Of a stretch of DNA of 64,000 nt, positions 18,982 to 24,431 are shown one piece after another. The stretch covers positions 1-64,000 of the forward strand of contig RECZ01000155.1 in the NCBI GenBank assembly GCA_007693765.1, written 5' to 3'. The first letter of the stretch is position 1. Every line of letters starts with the position of its first letter. The translations under genes and the position numbers were made by a program. The notes below the pieces were generated by a model, which searched no databases, was not told the DNA's origin, and saw only the letters and a list, made by a program, of their open reading frames with translations. Source of the DNA: Phycisphaerales bacterium. Its GTDB lineage: Bacteria > Planctomycetota > Phycisphaerae > Phycisphaerales > UBA1924.

Positions 18982-19509
18982 TCAGGAGTTGACGGTTTCC
19001 GCGGGGGCGAGCGTGTCGCTCGTGGAGGCGGAGGACGAGCTCTTCTTGAGCACGGACTGGACGGCGCTGCGGGCGATGCGGAGCTTGGTGTTCGTCGCCT
19101 CGTCGACCTTGAGCACGATCTCGTCGTCGCGGATCTCGGCGACGGTGCCGATCACGCCGCCGATGGTCTGCACACGGTCGTGGCGGGTGAGGCCGCCGAG
19201 CATCTCGGCCCGGCGCTTCTTCTCTTTGCGGCCCGCGAAGATCTGCATGACGATCATGAACACGAACATCATGAGGATGAGCGGGAGGAACATCCCCATG
19301 CCGCCCATGCCCTGGGGCTGGGCGGCCTGCTGCTGGCCGGGGGCGCCGAGCGGCTGACCCTCCTGCTGCACGGTCCCGGCGCCGCCGTCGGAGCGACCCG
19401 CGATCGGGGGGGCGGCCTGCGCGGCGGATGCGAGCGTTGCGTGCCCCGTGGCGTTGGAGTTGGGACCGACGAGGGCGAGGGTGATGATGGGGCTGGTCTG
19501 GGTCGTCAT
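18982..19509 (-). CDS. yajC: Preprotein translocase subunit YajC
   Basis: A 175-residue single-pass membrane protein that associates with SecDF. The hydrophobic helix (MFLPLILMMFVFMIVMQIF, about 88-106) is followed by the family core GRKEKKRRAEMLGGLTRHDRV, QTIGGVIGTV and the DDEIVLKVDE strand. The N-terminal 85 residues are a low-complexity Gly/Gln/Ala-rich extension (QQQAAQPQGMGGMGM), longer than in E. coli YajC (about 110 residues in total). It lies directly upstream of secDF, as in many bacteria. Confidence 0.95.
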   Translation of the reverse strand: MTTQTSPIITLALVGPNSNATGHATLASAAQAAPPIAGRSDGGAGTVQQEGQPLGAPGQQQAAQPQGMGGMGMFLPLILMMFVFMIVMQIFAGRKEKKRRAEMLGGLTRHDRVQTIGGVIGTVAEIRDDEIVLKVDEATNTKLRIARSAVQSVLKKSSSSASTSDTLAPAETVNS

Positions 19510-19602: not shown

Positions 19603-20889
19603 TTATGGCCTTTCGGCGTCCCCGATCTCGGGCGACGCGCTCGCGTCCGAGGGCTGGGGGTCATACGAGCGGACGCTGAGTACAGGCCAACGCCTGTCGA
19701 GCGCAGACCAATCATCATGGCCGATTGCCCGCCGGATGTCCAACATCAGGCGCTGGAAGTGTCGCAGATTGTGCAGGCTGACGAGGATCGGCCCCAGCAT
19801 CTCGTCTGAAAGGAACAGGTGCCGGATGTACGCCCGCGTGAACGGGCGCCCGTCGGGGGTGGGCCAGCCGTGGGACCCGGGGTCGCAGGCGAGGCAGTCG
19901 CAGCCCGTCTCGATGGGCCGGTCGTCCTCGCTGAACGCGGCGTTCCGGAGGCGGATCTGCCCCGTGCGGGTGAACGCGTTGGCGTTGCGCCCGTTCCGCG
20001 TGGGCAGGACGCAGTCGAACATGTCCACGCCGGCCCGCACCGCGGCGACCAAGTCCCGCTCGTAGCCGACGCCCATCAGGTAGCGGGGCTTGTCCTGCGG
20101 CAGGAGGGGGGCGGTATGGGCGACGACGCGGGCGATGTCCCCCGGCCCCTCCCCCACCGCCACGCCGCCGATGGCGTAGCCGGGGAGGTCGATCGCGCAG
20201 ACGCGCTGGGCGGACCACTCACGCTTGGCGAGGTCGGTGCCGCCCTGGACGATGCCGAAGAGGGCCTGATCGTCGGGGCGGGCGTGGGCCTTCACGCAGC
20301 GCTCGAGCCAGCGGATGGTGCGCTCGTTGGCGATGGTGAGGCGGGCGTCGTGGTCGTAGCCCGCGCTGAAGTTGGCGGCGTGCTGGGCGGCCAGCCGGAG
20401 GCGCGTGAGGTTGAAGGTGCGCGGGTCGACGCTGGGCGGGCAGTCGTCCAGGGCCATGATGATGTCGGCGCCGAGTTTGTTCTGCGTCTCGATGGCGCGC
20501 TCGGGGGTGAGGTCGATCATCGAGCCGTCGACGATCGACTTGAAGACGACCGAGTCTTCGCTGACGCGGTTGCCGTCGGCCATGGAGTAGGCCTGATAGC
20601 CGCCCGAGTCGGTGAGAATGGGGCCGTCCCAGCCCATGAACGGGTGCAGCCCGCCGCGACGCTCGATGAGGTCCGGGCCGGGTCGCAGGAGCAGGTGGTA
20701 GGTGTTGGCGAGCACGACCTGCGCGCCGGTGGCGCGCACGAGATGGGGCAGGATGCCTTTCACGGTGGCCCGGGTGCCTACGGGCATGAAGGCGGGCGTG
20801 TCGAACGCCCCGTGCGGCGTGTACACCTTCCCCGTGCGGGCGTTGGTCGCCCGCGATCGTTCGAGGATCTCGAAGCGCAGTGCGCTCAT
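19603..20889 (-). CDS. tgt: Queuine tRNA-ribosyltransferase (tRNA-guanine transglycosylase)
   Basis: A 428-residue enzyme that swaps guanine 34 for the queuosine precursor in tRNAs with GUN anticodons. Family motifs: TPAFMPVGTRATVKG, the substrate loop DSGGYQAYS (usually DSGGFQVFS), GIVQGG, GYAIGGVAVGE, and MFDCVLPTRNGRNANAF with nucleophile Asp near residue 292. The zinc site is CDCLACD then AYIRHLF, with about ten extra residues (GSHGWPTPDG) between the third Cys and the His region. It ends seven bases after... the rhomboid gene stop, so the two are probably one transcript. The C-terminal tail is Pro/Ser-rich. Confidence 0.94.
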   Translation of the reverse strand: MSALRFEILERSRATNARTGKVYTPHGAFDTPAFMPVGTRATVKGILPHLVRATGAQVVLANTYHLLLRPGPDLIERRGGLHPFMGWDGPILTDSGGYQAYSMADGNRVSEDSVVFKSIVDGSMIDLTPERAIETQNKLGADIIMALDDCPPSVDPRTFNLTRLRLAAQHAANFSAGYDHDARLTIANERTIRWLERCVKAHARPDDQALFGIVQGGTDLAKREWSAQRVCAIDLPGYAIGGVAVGEGPGDIARVVAHTAPLLPQDKPRYLMGVGYERDLVAAVRAGVDMFDCVLPTRNGRNANAFTRTGQIRLRNAAFSEDDRPIETGCDCLACDPGSHGWPTPDGRPFTRAYIRHLFLSDEMLGPILVSLHNLRHFQRLMLDIRRAIGHDDWSALDRRWPVLSVRSYDPQPSDASASPEIGDAERP

Positions 20890-20896
20890 GGGCTGG

Positions 20897-21814
20897 TCAT
20901 CCTCGGCGGGCGTCCGTCGCGTCGCGCAGGACGGCGCGCTCGGCCTCGCTGAGGCTGTGCAGGCCCTCCGTGGCGACCTTGCTCAGGACGCGGTCGACCT
21001 CGGCCTGGCTGGGGCCACGGGGCGTTGACCTCGGGGTGCGGGGCGCGTGCTTGCTCGCGGCGACGCGCCCGGCGTGGCGTTTCTTGTCCGGCGGCTTGAA
21101 GACATCGAAGAAGTCGTGCAGCAGGTGGGGCCGACGCACGAAGTACGCGCCGGCGAGCGCGCCGCCGATGTGGGCCGCGTCGCCGCCGGCGTTTGCGCCG
21201 CCCAGCAGCAGGTTGGCCAGCGCCACGCCGACGTAGATGTACGCGAGCGTGCGCAGCCGCAGGCTGATGGGCGGGAAGATGAGTTGCATGACGGCGTGCG
21301 GCTGGTAGTGGGCCGCGGCCATCACCACGCCGAACACGCCCGCCGAGGCGCCGATGAGCGGCGTGCGCATGTCGTGGATGAGCAGCCCGGGCAGAGAGAC
21401 GGGCAGCATGTAGCCGAGCAGGTTCAGCGTGAGGTACATGATCGCGCCGAATACGCCGCAGACAAGGTAGAACGCCGCGTAGCGCTTGGACCCCATCCGA
21501 GACTCGACCGCGCCGCCGAAGACCCAGAGCGCGAACATGTTGAAGAGGATGTGGAAGAGGCTCGCCTGCGAGTGCAGGAACTGGAAGGTGAGCAGCCTCC
21601 AGACCTCGAGGCCGAAGAATCCTTCCTGGGTGTTGAAGTTGCCCCACGTCAGCAGCGTGTTTCTCACCGGCGGAGAAAGCTGCATCACCACGAAGATGGC
21701 GATGTTGACGACGATCAGCCACGTGTTGAACGACCACGCGGGCAGGGCGCCGACGCGGGCGCGGCGGGGCGTTCGCTGGTCGGCTCTGAGATAATCGCGG
21801 TCGTACAGGCCCAT
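20897..21814 (-). CDS. Rhomboid-family intramembrane serine protease
   Basis: A 305-residue polytopic membrane protease. The catalytic Ser lies in GASAGVFGV and the His in AHIGGALAGAYF. The conserved loop-1 WR motif (VWRLLTFQFLH) and HILFNMFALWVFGGAVE are also present. After the last helix, a soluble tail (about 225-305) ends in a short helical module, QAEVDRVLSKVATEGLHSLS, that recurs at the C-terminus of the neighbouring site-2 protease. The gene lies 122 bases after that protease and 7 bases before tgt. The substrates are unknown. Confidence 0.93.
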   Translation of the reverse strand: MGLYDRDYLRADQRTPRRARVGALPAWSFNTWLIVVNIAIFVVMQLSPPVRNTLLTWGNFNTQEGFFGLEVWRLLTFQFLHSQASLFHILFNMFALWVFGGAVESRMGSKRYAAFYLVCGVFGAIMYLTLNLLGYMLPVSLPGLLIHDMRTPLIGASAGVFGVVMAAAHYQPHAVMQLIFPPISLRLRTLAYIYVGVALANLLLGGANAGGDAAHIGGALAGAYFVRRPHLLHDFFDVFKPPDKKRHAGRVAASKHAPRTPRSTPRGPSQAEVDRVLSKVATEGLHSLSEAERAVLRDATDARRG

Positions 21815-21936
21815 GCCGTTGTGTCGCGCTCCGTGCGGAGAAGGGGTTGGTGCGGCGCCGTCCGTGGCCGCCGAGGCGGTGCGGGGCCCCGCTGATGAGA
21901 CGCGCCCCGGTTCTTCGGGTTCGTGCGGGGGCGATG

Positions 21937-23004
21937 TTACCCGCGACGGCGGCGGTTGGTGGCCCGCTTGAGGACGGCGTGCTCACGCCGGTTCAGGGCG
22001 TCGATGCCCTCGGAGGCGATTTTGGCGAGGATCCGGTCCACCTCGGCCTGCTCCTGCGCTTCGCGCTCGAGCCGGCGGATTTCTCTGGGGGAAGGCTCGT
22101 CGGGCTCGTCGTCGTCGGATGCGCCATGTTTCCAGTCGTCGGCGCCGGCGCCCCAGAGGCCGCCCTCGCCGACGCGGCCGAGTTCGTCGGGCGCGCGGAG
22201 CCGGCGGCGCTCGAACCAGCACGTCAGCCCGCCGAAGGCGGCGATGCCGATGAGCATCGCGTGGTTCCCCACCAGCCCCACGAGCGCGAGCACGATGGCG
22301 CCCACCAGCCCGATCGTGATCGCGACCTCGAGCGAGGGGATGCGTCCGATGCGCGGCCAGAGCACTTCGCGGAGCACGCGCCCGCCGTCGAGCGGGAAGA
22401 TCGGCAGCAGCAGGTTGAAGCCCAGCAGCACGATGTTGAGGTAGTGCGTGAGCCACAGCGCGACGAGCCAATAGGTGTCGATCCCGCTGATCACCGCGCC
22501 GGGCCGGAAAGGGTTGAAGACGATGTCCTCGCGCATGCCCGCGAGCAGCAGGCCGACGGAGGTGATGGGCAGGATCGCGACGTTCACCATCGGCCCGCCG
22601 AGCGTGGTCACAAGATGGGCGCGCCAGTTCTCGGGCGGGTTGCACGAGGCGAGGCCGCCGAGGGGCCACATGAGGATGTCGTCCGCCTCGCCCTTGACGG
22701 CGCGGCAGGCGAAGCAGTGGCCGAACTCGTGCAGCAGCACCAGCACGAAGAGCGCCGACATGGCGACGAGTGCGTACGCGAAGCCCCACGCGTCCTGCAG
22801 CAGGGAGTAGGCCAGCCTCGCGACGATGAAGAGCACGAAGAAGACGTGTATGCGCACGCGGATCCCCGCCACCGTCCCCAGCGTGAGGGCCCAGTTGAAG
22901 GGGTTGTCGGCGTCGCCGAAGACGCGGGCGAGCGTCTCGCGGAACCGGCCCTGTCCGGCGTCGGGGTGGCGCATGCCTCGGTGATCCTTCCAGTCGCTGG
23001 TCAT
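21937..23004 (-). CDS. M50-family (site-2 protease-like) intramembrane zinc metalloprotease
   Basis: A 355-residue multi-pass membrane protease. The zinc-binding HExxH is in VLLHEFGHCFACR, and the third ligand Asp is in FPLDGGRVLREV. GGPMVNVAILP corresponds to the NPxxN-like region. The C-terminal cytosolic part is acidic and ends in QAEVDRILAKIASEGIDALN, matching the tail of the rhomboid protease next door. Its start codon overlaps the Nudix stop by four bases (23001-23004), so the two are coupled. Length and topology fit the SpoIVFB-like subgroup without PDZ or CBS domains. Confidence 0.92.
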   Translation of the reverse strand: MTSDWKDHRGMRHPDAGQGRFRETLARVFGDADNPFNWALTLGTVAGIRVRIHVFFVLFIVARLAYSLLQDAWGFAYALVAMSALFVLVLLHEFGHCFACRAVKGEADDILMWPLGGLASCNPPENWRAHLVTTLGGPMVNVAILPITSVGLLLAGMREDIVFNPFRPGAVISGIDTYWLVALWLTHYLNIVLLGFNLLLPIFPLDGGRVLREVLWPRIGRIPSLEVAITIGLVGAIVLALVGLVGNHAMLIGIAAFGGLTCWFERRRLRAPDELGRVGEGGLWGAGADDWKHGASDDDEPDEPSPREIRRLEREAQEQAEVDRILAKIASEGIDALNRREHAVLKRATNRRRRG

Positions 23005-23543
23005 GCGTGCCCGGCGGGCAGGAGGCCGCGCCGGAGGGCAATGAGCAGGGCGAGCATGGACTTGGCGTCGATGAGCTCGGCCTTATCGATCATGTCGAAG
23101 CACGTTTGTAGAGGCACGGGCGTCACCTGGATGCGTTCGTCGGCCTCCGGGCGTTCGCCGACGTGGGTCAGATCGGTGGCGAGGAAGGCGTGCATCAGTT
23201 CGTCCGTGAGGCCGGGCGTGGTGAGGAACGAGCCCAGCGGTATCAGCCGGTCCGCCCGCCAGCCGGTTTCTTCGATGAGCTCCCGGGCCGCACAGATTTC
23301 GGGGGCCTCGCCGCGGTCGATGGTGCCGGCGGGGAGCTCCAGGAGCCAGTCGTCGACGGCGACGCGGAGATTCCGGATCATCGCGACCCGCCCGTCGGGG
23401 AGCAGCGGGAGGATCACGACGGCCCCGGGGTGACGGACGATCTCGCGTTCGAGGGTGGACCCGTCCTCGAGATGCAGGCATACGCGCTCGAAATCGAACT
23501 TCGAGCCTTTGTGGAGAACGTCGCGCTCGCAAGTACGGCTCAT
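23001..23543 (-). CDS. Nudix hydrolase, ADP-ribose pyrophosphatase type
   Basis: A 180-residue cytosolic pyrophosphohydrolase. The Nudix box runs from about residue 90: AGTIDRGEAPEICAARELIEETGW fits Gx5Ex5[UA]xREx2EExGU. The upstream strand LLELPAGTI is typical of ADP-ribose pyrophosphatases (NudF-like). I chose the ATG at 23543 because a TATGAT -10 box ends seven bases before it; an in-frame ATG at 23555 lies inside that box. The start is head-to-head with mlaF, with fewer than 20 bases between. It is the first gene of the coupled minus-strand run. Confidence 0.88.
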   Translation of the reverse strand: MSRTCERDVLHKGSKFDFERVCLHLEDGSTLEREIVRHPGAVVILPLLPDGRVAMIRNLRVAVDDWLLELPAGTIDRGEAPEICAARELIEETGWRADRLIPLGSFLTTPGLTDELMHAFLATDLTHVGERPEADERIQVTPVPLQTCFDMIDKAELIDAKSMLALLIALRRGLLPAGHA

Positions 23544-23550
23544 CGATGGA

Positions 23551-23556
23551 ATCATA
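23551..23556 (-). promoter_or_regulatory. -10 box (TATGAT) of the Nudix gene, within a very short divergent promoter
   Basis: On the minus strand TATGAT ends seven bases before the ATG at 23543. The opposite mlaF start is at 23562, so two divergent genes start 18 bases apart. Their promoters must overlap each other or lie inside the opposite coding region. Confidence 0.45.
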
Positions 23557-23561
23557 GGGGA

Positions 23562-24431
23562 GTGACCGCCCCCGCCACGAGCCGCGACGCCAGCCCCCCC
23601 ATCGTCCGGTTCGTCGGCGTGCGAAAGTCGTTCGGCGCCCTGCGGGTGCTGCAGGACATCGATCTCACGTTCAATACCGGCGAGACGACCGTGGTGCTGG
23701 GGCCCTCGGGCGTGGGCAAATCCGTGCTGCTCAAGCACATCGCGGGGCTGCTGCGGCCGGATCGCGGCGAGGTGTGGTTCCGCGACACGCGGATCGACGG
23801 AATGAACGAACGGCGCCTGAGCGGCATCCGGCGGGAGATCGGCTTTCTGTTTCAGCAGGCGGCCCTCTTCGATTCGATGAGCGTGGAGGAGAACGTCGCC
23901 TTCCCGCTCACGGAGCACACGAGCCTCGGGCGCGCCGAGCGCCGGGAGCGGGTGAGCGAGGCGCTGCGGACGGTGGGCATCGAGGGGATGCTCGCGAAGC
24001 TCCCCGCCCAGCTCTCGGGCGGGCAGCGCAAGCGGGTGGGCCTGGCGCGGGCGATCATCCTGAAGCCCGCGTTAATCCTCTATGACGAGCCCACGACCGG
24101 GCTGGACCCCGTACGGGCCGACGGCATCAACGAGCTGATCTTGAAGATGCGCAGCGAGCTCGGCGTCAGCGGCATCGTCGTCACACACGACATCACCAGC
24201 GCCCGGAAGGTCGCCGATCGGCTGGTGATGCTGCGGGACGGGCGGGTGGTCGCGGACGGCACGTTCGACGAACTCGAATCTTCGCCGGACCCCTACGTCC
24301 AGCACTTCCTGCGCGGACGCTACGATCCGGCCATGGACGAACCCACCAGCCACAACGGCGTCCCCGTTCCCCACAGCGCAGGCTCGTCCGGCGACGACGA
24401 CGCGCCCCGCCACGAAGCGGGTGAAGCATGA
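23562..24431 (+). CDS. mlaF: MlaF-like ABC transporter ATP-binding protein
   Basis: A 289-residue cytosolic ATPase for lipid trafficking between the membranes. It has Walker A (GPSGVGKS), the Q-loop (FLFQQAALFDSMSVEENVAFPL, which is characteristic of Mla/Mce ATPases), the signature LSGGQRKRV, Walker B (LILYDEPTTGLDP) and the switch His (VVTHD). A C-terminal extension of about 35 residues is acidic and polar. The start is inferred at GTG 23562; no good ribosome binding site is visible. It overlaps mlaD by four bases. No permease gene (mlaE) is adjacent, which is unusual. Confidence 0.92.
   Translation: MTAPATSRDASPPIVRFVGVRKSFGALRVLQDIDLTFNTGETTVVLGPSGVGKSVLLKHIAGLLRPDRGEVWFRDTRIDGMNERRLSGIRREIGFLFQQAALFDSMSVEENVAFPLTEHTSLGRAERRERVSEALRTVGIEGMLAKLPAQLSGGQRKRVGLARAIILKPALILYDEPTTGLDPVRADGINELILKMRSELGVSGIVVTHDITSARKVADRLVMLRDGRVVADGTFDELESSPDPYVQHFLRGRYDPAMDEPTSHNGVPVPHSAGSSGDDDAPRHEAGEA

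Follow-up and report, generated by a model that had tools for sequence, protein, structure and literature searches.

Site-2 proteases (S2Ps) such as mjS2P (MJ0392) and SpoIVFB carry a C-terminal CBS domain. Among bacterial rhomboids, YqgP serves as an adaptor of FtsH, its catalytically dead form included (PMC7231995), and rhomboids remove orphan membrane proteins (PMC7232013); the S2P RseP eliminates signal peptides (PMC8144685). SHOCT is a short C-terminal domain with two predicted helices that occurs on many protein types and whose function is unknown (PMC3581485). The domain described here, DUF6576 (PF20216), was not mentioned by name in the open-access literature searched. Homology, structure prediction, distribution, conservation and gene context were computed for a locus in the window, the 64,000-nucleotide stretch of Phycisphaerales DNA analyzed in this work, where a rhomboid and an S2P encoded side by side both end in this domain.

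Results and discussion

The adjacent rhomboid and S2P share a C-terminal domain

There is a 4-base overlap between the NUDIX hydrolase stop and the S2P start, 122 bases separate the S2P stop from the rhomboid start (Table 1), and the short spacings from NUDIX through S2P and rhomboid to tgt, all on one strand, led us to read these genes as a single operon. The Ser-His dyad motifs (GxSG, His) expected of PF01694 are in place in the rhomboid, whose nearest solved relatives are GlpG, and the S2P has the HExxH and distal Asp-Gly motifs of PF02163. The closest solved relatives of the S2P membrane domain are the MJ0392 S2P (3b4r; E 2.4e-43) and SpoIVFB (E 5.2e-17).

Table 1 Features of the locus, in window coordinates
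Feature	Position	Strand	Basis or remark
NUDIX hydrolase gene	23001..23600	-	start codon uncertain
Site-2 protease (S2P), Peptidase M50, 355 aa	21937..23004	-	Peptidase_M50 (PF02163) E 5e-14; HEFGH and PLDGG
Zinc-binding HEFGH motif of S2P	22717..22731	-	sequence and alignment
S2P linker, predicted disordered, residues 273-304, membrane domain to tail	22093..22188	-	AlphaFold2
DUF6576 tail of S2P, residues 319-353	21946..22050	-	PF20216 profile and BLASTP
Rhomboid intramembrane serine protease, 305 aa	20897..21814	-	Pfam Rhomboid (PF01694) E 7.6e-25; catalytic GASAG and His (AAHIGG)
DUF6576 tail of rhomboid, residues 270-304	20903..21007	-	PF20216 profile and BLASTP
tgt, queuine tRNA-ribosyltransferase	19603..20889	-	starts 7 bases past rhomboid stop
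yajC, preprotein translocase subunit	18982..19509	-	
Fused secD-secF, 1151 aa	15460..18915	-	

The rhomboid tail, Q270-R304, reads QAEVDRVLSKVATEGLHSLSEAERAVLRDATDARR and is followed by a G at the C-terminus, while the S2P tail, Q319-R353, reads QAEVDRILAKIASEGIDALNRREHAVLKRATNRRR and is followed by RG. When the whole proteins were compared by BLASTP, the tail was the sole significant region, with 24 of 52 positions identical (46%, E 1e-10), and the module common to both spans about 35 residues. An earlier note on this DNA had placed the same C-terminal module on the two adjacent proteases, and this was confirmed, with both genes at the stated coordinates. Its motif for the second helix, (S/R)E(A/H)xAVL, was out of register by one to two positions with the alignment of SEAERAVLRDAT over NRREHAVLKRAT.

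Both tails belong to DUF6576 and cover most of the length of its Pfam profile, which identifies the domain of unknown function on rhomboids that the note had tentatively mentioned; the family is indeed carried mostly by rhomboids. Searching the whole 2.9 Mb genome with PF20216 returned these two tails and no third place, the two E values being 1.0e-7 and 3.5e-6. Against a curated cut-off of 27.3 bits, the S2P scored 34.1 bits in the genome search and 30.5 bits in a scan of the whole protein, and the rhomboid scored 29.2 and 26.0 bits, the last value being just under the cut-off. Chance similarity of the two tails is ruled out by the PF20216 and BLASTP matches, and also because the tail pair recurs in most order-level relatives. 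The DUF6576 family itself was already in Pfam; that S2Ps and free SRP M domains also carry it is described in this work from the sequence. Assignment of the tail to SHOCT was considered and rejected, as a family listing for 65 tails (25 families, E values up to 5) did not include PF09851.

Distribution and gene context of the tail

At the level of the order, DUF6576 was present in 41 of 41 genomes, mostly in exactly two copies, and the 40 regions read contained a tailed S2P and a tailed rhomboid that were nearly always neighbors. It was found in 266 of the 294 genomes of the phylum Planctomycetota. When named genomes were scanned for nothing but the tail, 80 loci were obtained, from Planctomycetota, Bacteroidota, Gemmatimonadota, Verrucomicrobiota and their relatives, and 79 of these tails were on rhomboids or S2Ps, the remaining one being cut by a contig end. 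Tailed rhomboids were seen in all four of the named phyla. The 44 non-planctomycete genomes reached through these loci, and thus selected through the tail itself, had the tail on one rhomboid, sometimes two, and no tailed S2P was seen among them; every tailed S2P encountered was planctomycete. Altogether, 246 distinct tail-bearing frames were examined, comprising 176 rhomboids, 63 S2Ps, 4 SRP M domains and 3 unclassified frames (two contig-end truncations and one probable frameshifted S2P). With 239 of 246 carriers being rhomboids or S2Ps, the random spread over unrelated cytosolic proteins that the earlier note had named as evidence against its proposal was not seen.

Some individual loci were arranged differently. 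At L094:2013-3929 (+), a tail-less rhomboid stands beside a tailed S2P, the reverse of the usual loss, and at L097:3126-5009 (-), two tandem rhomboids, each tailed, occupy the place where the S2P-rhomboid pair usually stands. A tailed rhomboid gene directly following a tail-less one was observed in Bacteroidota (L186, L188, L193, L223, L238, L247 and others). A trypsin-like protease domain comes right after the first half of a rhomboid domain in two frames that end in DUF6576, L135:236-1900 (+) and L119:1-1611 (+), and has probably been inserted into the rhomboid domain.

A profile of the tailed S2Ps was run on 149 genomes of the phylum, and its matches ran through the tail in at least 56 of them; other matches reached no further than the end of the membrane domain, among them one to another S2P in the genome of the window. 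When 106 S2P membrane domains were placed in a tree built with the tail excluded, 19 of the 25 tail-less proteins formed one clade (SH-aLRT 97), and the tail label required at least 5 changes, one of them a likely frameshift case, compared to 22.8 with shuffled labels, indicating that the association of S2P and tail is old. A single origin of the S2P tail is plausible on this sequence evidence and is put no higher because the tree was a quick one with many weak forks.

In Phycisphaerae, the pair lies within a NUDIX-S2P-rhomboid-tgt-yajC-secDF cluster, with tgt following the rhomboid in most regions read and then usually yajC. In the window's family, the S2P gene separates NUDIX from the rhomboid; in another family (L094, L100), it separates the rhomboid from tgt, and related genomes have NUDIX-rhomboid-tgt-yajC with S2P absent. 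YajC and SecDF belong to the holo-translocon (PMC5095914). This linkage to translocon genes was seen only at Phycisphaerae-type loci and was not found outside that class.

In many planctomycetes, the tailed rhomboid and tailed S2P genes are unlinked. This removes the dependence on adjacency from the earlier suggestion that a shared tail on side-by-side proteases points to a common docking partner; the docking partner itself is still the best reading. It also bears on the view that the tail has no partner and was copied by recombination from the neighboring rhomboid gene onto the S2P, where it drifts. The genes are adjacent within the order, as such copying would have it, but the two tailed genes lie apart in planctomycete families outside it, which largely refutes copying through adjacency alone, and a tail that is kept phylum-wide and is as invariant as the active site makes this explanation hardly credible.

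Conservation of the tail and catalytic state of its carriers

In an alignment of 19 diverse S2Ps, nearly all invariant columns fell either in the tail (D323, L326, G333, L337, E341 and L345) or at and around the active site (H92, E93, H96 and D206). The tail is as conserved as the catalytic residues. Across genomes, S2P and rhomboid tails were 44% identical, hardly below the 48% found among S2P tails and the 47% among rhomboid tails, indicating that the tails of the two proteases are held to one form. Of 67 tailed S2Ps aligned, 55 were catalytically intact and 12 were without HExxH and/or the catalytic Asp yet had kept the tail, so that the role of the tail is separable from catalysis. Both catalytic residues aligned in 160 of 174 tailed rhomboids and failed to align in 14, part of which are perhaps misalignments. 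Apparent pseudoproteases among the tailed S2Ps occur at L064, L065, L071, L073, L093, L096, L115, L189, L204, L207 and L049/L151, several of them beside a tailed rhomboid.

A regulatory or turnover element, either an autoinhibitory flap or a recognition tag by which a cytosolic AAA+ protease sets the amount of the enzyme, would be suited by a C-terminal tail on a flexible linker that, being basic, is likely on the cytosolic side. Autoinhibition, however, has no purpose on the catalytically broken S2Ps that retain the tail, a soluble M domain is tailed as well (see below), and a folded, strictly conserved hairpin exceeds the needs of a simple degron, so that we regard such an element as unlikely.

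Tails of the same genome were slightly more alike than those of different genomes (47% compared to 44% identity, permutation P 4e-4). Together with the two amphipathic helices and the adjacency of the tailed proteases in most order-level relatives, this would be expected if the tails bound each other to form rhomboid dimers or a rhomboid-S2P complex. A small within-genome effect can also be explained by linked composition, though, and SHOCT, an analogous short C-terminal domain, did not oligomerize when tested (PMC3581485). Many genomes have a single tailed protein, and since this is so in most of the non-planctomycete genomes examined, the tail cannot have served a heteromeric pair in its ancestral role. 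We therefore consider oligomerization unlikely as the function of the tail.

Predicted structure of the tail

AlphaFold2 modeled 65 tails as a helical hairpin, with helices at residues 2-22 and 29-44 of the 45-residue fragment and a pLDDT of 94. In the model of the whole S2P, hairpin helices 306-332 and 339-354 follow the linker at residues 273-304, and pLDDT was about 30 in the linker compared to about 90 in the tail. The tail is thus predicted to be an autonomous helical hairpin that, in the S2P, hangs on a disordered tether. Between the helices, an invariant Gly, a Leu and a Ser/Thr-x-x-Glu motif probably have a structural role, as helix C-cap and capping box. The fold by itself can account for most invariant residues of the tail (the C-cap Gly, Leu, the capping box and the core Leu), so they do not demonstrate a conserved binding face. 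A search for solved relatives of the tail gave none that were significant.

The tail on a free SRP54/Ffh M domain

The earlier note had proposed a test of whether the tail appears on membrane proteases only. It does not, because a free-standing SRP54/Ffh M domain carries it: seven genomes, all from a single planctomycete family (f26), encode a small protein that is made up of the M domain without the GTPase domain and ends in DUF6576 (L287:6085-6726 (-), and L282, L283, L284, L285, L286 and L288). An initial Pfam match had suggested a tail on full-length Ffh, which was rejected as the carriers are free M domains lacking the GTPase and are distinct from true ffh. In three genomes, the M-domain gene is located upstream of true ffh and shares its strand, and in a fourth it adjoins ffh on the opposite strand; in the remaining genomes its contig has no ffh in view. 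In one fully read region, it is located between a murA-like gene and ffh-rpsP-trmD-rplS, the names beyond ffh being read from the sequence. Such carriers are few, and they are the strongest functional clue, being soluble proteins with relatives that bind signal peptides.

A tail fused to an SRP M domain next to ffh, in an ffh-rpsP-trmD-rplS cluster, and the basic residues that follow many tails are what one might see if the tail bound the ribosome or SRP RNA directly and so held the proteases near the exit tunnel, where they would act co-translationally. The fusion is confined to one planctomycete family, however, the tail helices are of mixed charge, and no convincing RNA-binding family matched the tails; we find direct binding of this kind quite unlikely.

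A candidate docking tag in membrane-protein quality control

We tentatively favor, at a little short of an even chance, the reading that DUF6576 is a docking tag on the cytosolic side for a partner common to rhomboid and S2P, and in one family to the M domain, acting in membrane-protein quality control. Both protease C-termini are probably cytosolic, given that the linker is basic and the M-domain carrier is soluble. A docking module fits better than a part of the enzyme, since the predicted hairpin is tethered, is held to one form on different enzymes, is kept independently of catalysis, would face the cytosol and is found on carriers tied to membrane biogenesis. Quality control appears the likeliest setting in view of the known roles of bacterial rhomboids as FtsH adaptor (PMC7231995) and in orphan removal (PMC7232013). 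Rhomboid and S2P hairpins and, within one family, that of the free SRP M domain would be bound by the same partner, which would bring the tailed proteins together where membrane and secreted proteins are inserted or discarded. Once recruited, the proteases may dispose of spent signal peptides, of orphan subunits or of proteins that were inserted wrongly. Candidate partners are the holo-translocon, the ribosome, and FtsH or another AAA+ machine.

A bolder and, taken whole, unlikely form of the docking reading is that DUF6576 would direct its carriers, like an address label, to a hub of membrane-protein quality control in the Bacteroidota-Planctomycetota lineages. Such a hub would gather rhomboids, a dedicated S2P branch that includes dead pseudoproteases and, for one family, an SRP M domain that lacks the GTPase but still binds hydrophobic segments, and all of them would dock on a single conserved partner, located at the translocon or close to it.

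With one domain common to an SRP fragment and to two intramembrane proteases of unrelated mechanism, the search can concentrate on a single partner, and an uncharacterized Pfam domain gains a testable role. Most bacterial rhomboids and many S2Ps await functional assignment, and the partner of the hairpin would show where these proteases act in several phyla.

Comparison with known systems

The model of the S2P tail (21940-22074, -) resembles the DELSEED hairpin of the beta/A/B subunits of rotary ATPases. All but one of the 50 Foldseek matches listed were to subunits of the rotary-ATPase type, most of which superposed over about 30 residues with an rmsd near 1 A; E values were 2.7 or worse, below significance, and the matched segment is presumably the DELSEED hairpin. 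In a comparison that was chosen post hoc and used AtpD sequences entered by hand, hhalign gave a probability of 31% for the tail against the DELSEED segment and at most 0.4% for 57 decoys. The resemblance is probably one of convergence. SHOCT is similar to DUF6576 in its shortness, C-terminal place and two helices, while the range of carriers is far narrower for DUF6576. In contrast to the tailed rhomboids, YqgP of B. subtilis has its cytosolic domain at the N-terminus, where it binds metal, and an extracellular TPR domain at the C-terminus, with no DUF6576 described. Where mjS2P and SpoIVFB have their C-terminal CBS domain, the planctomycete S2P has the DUF6576 hairpin.
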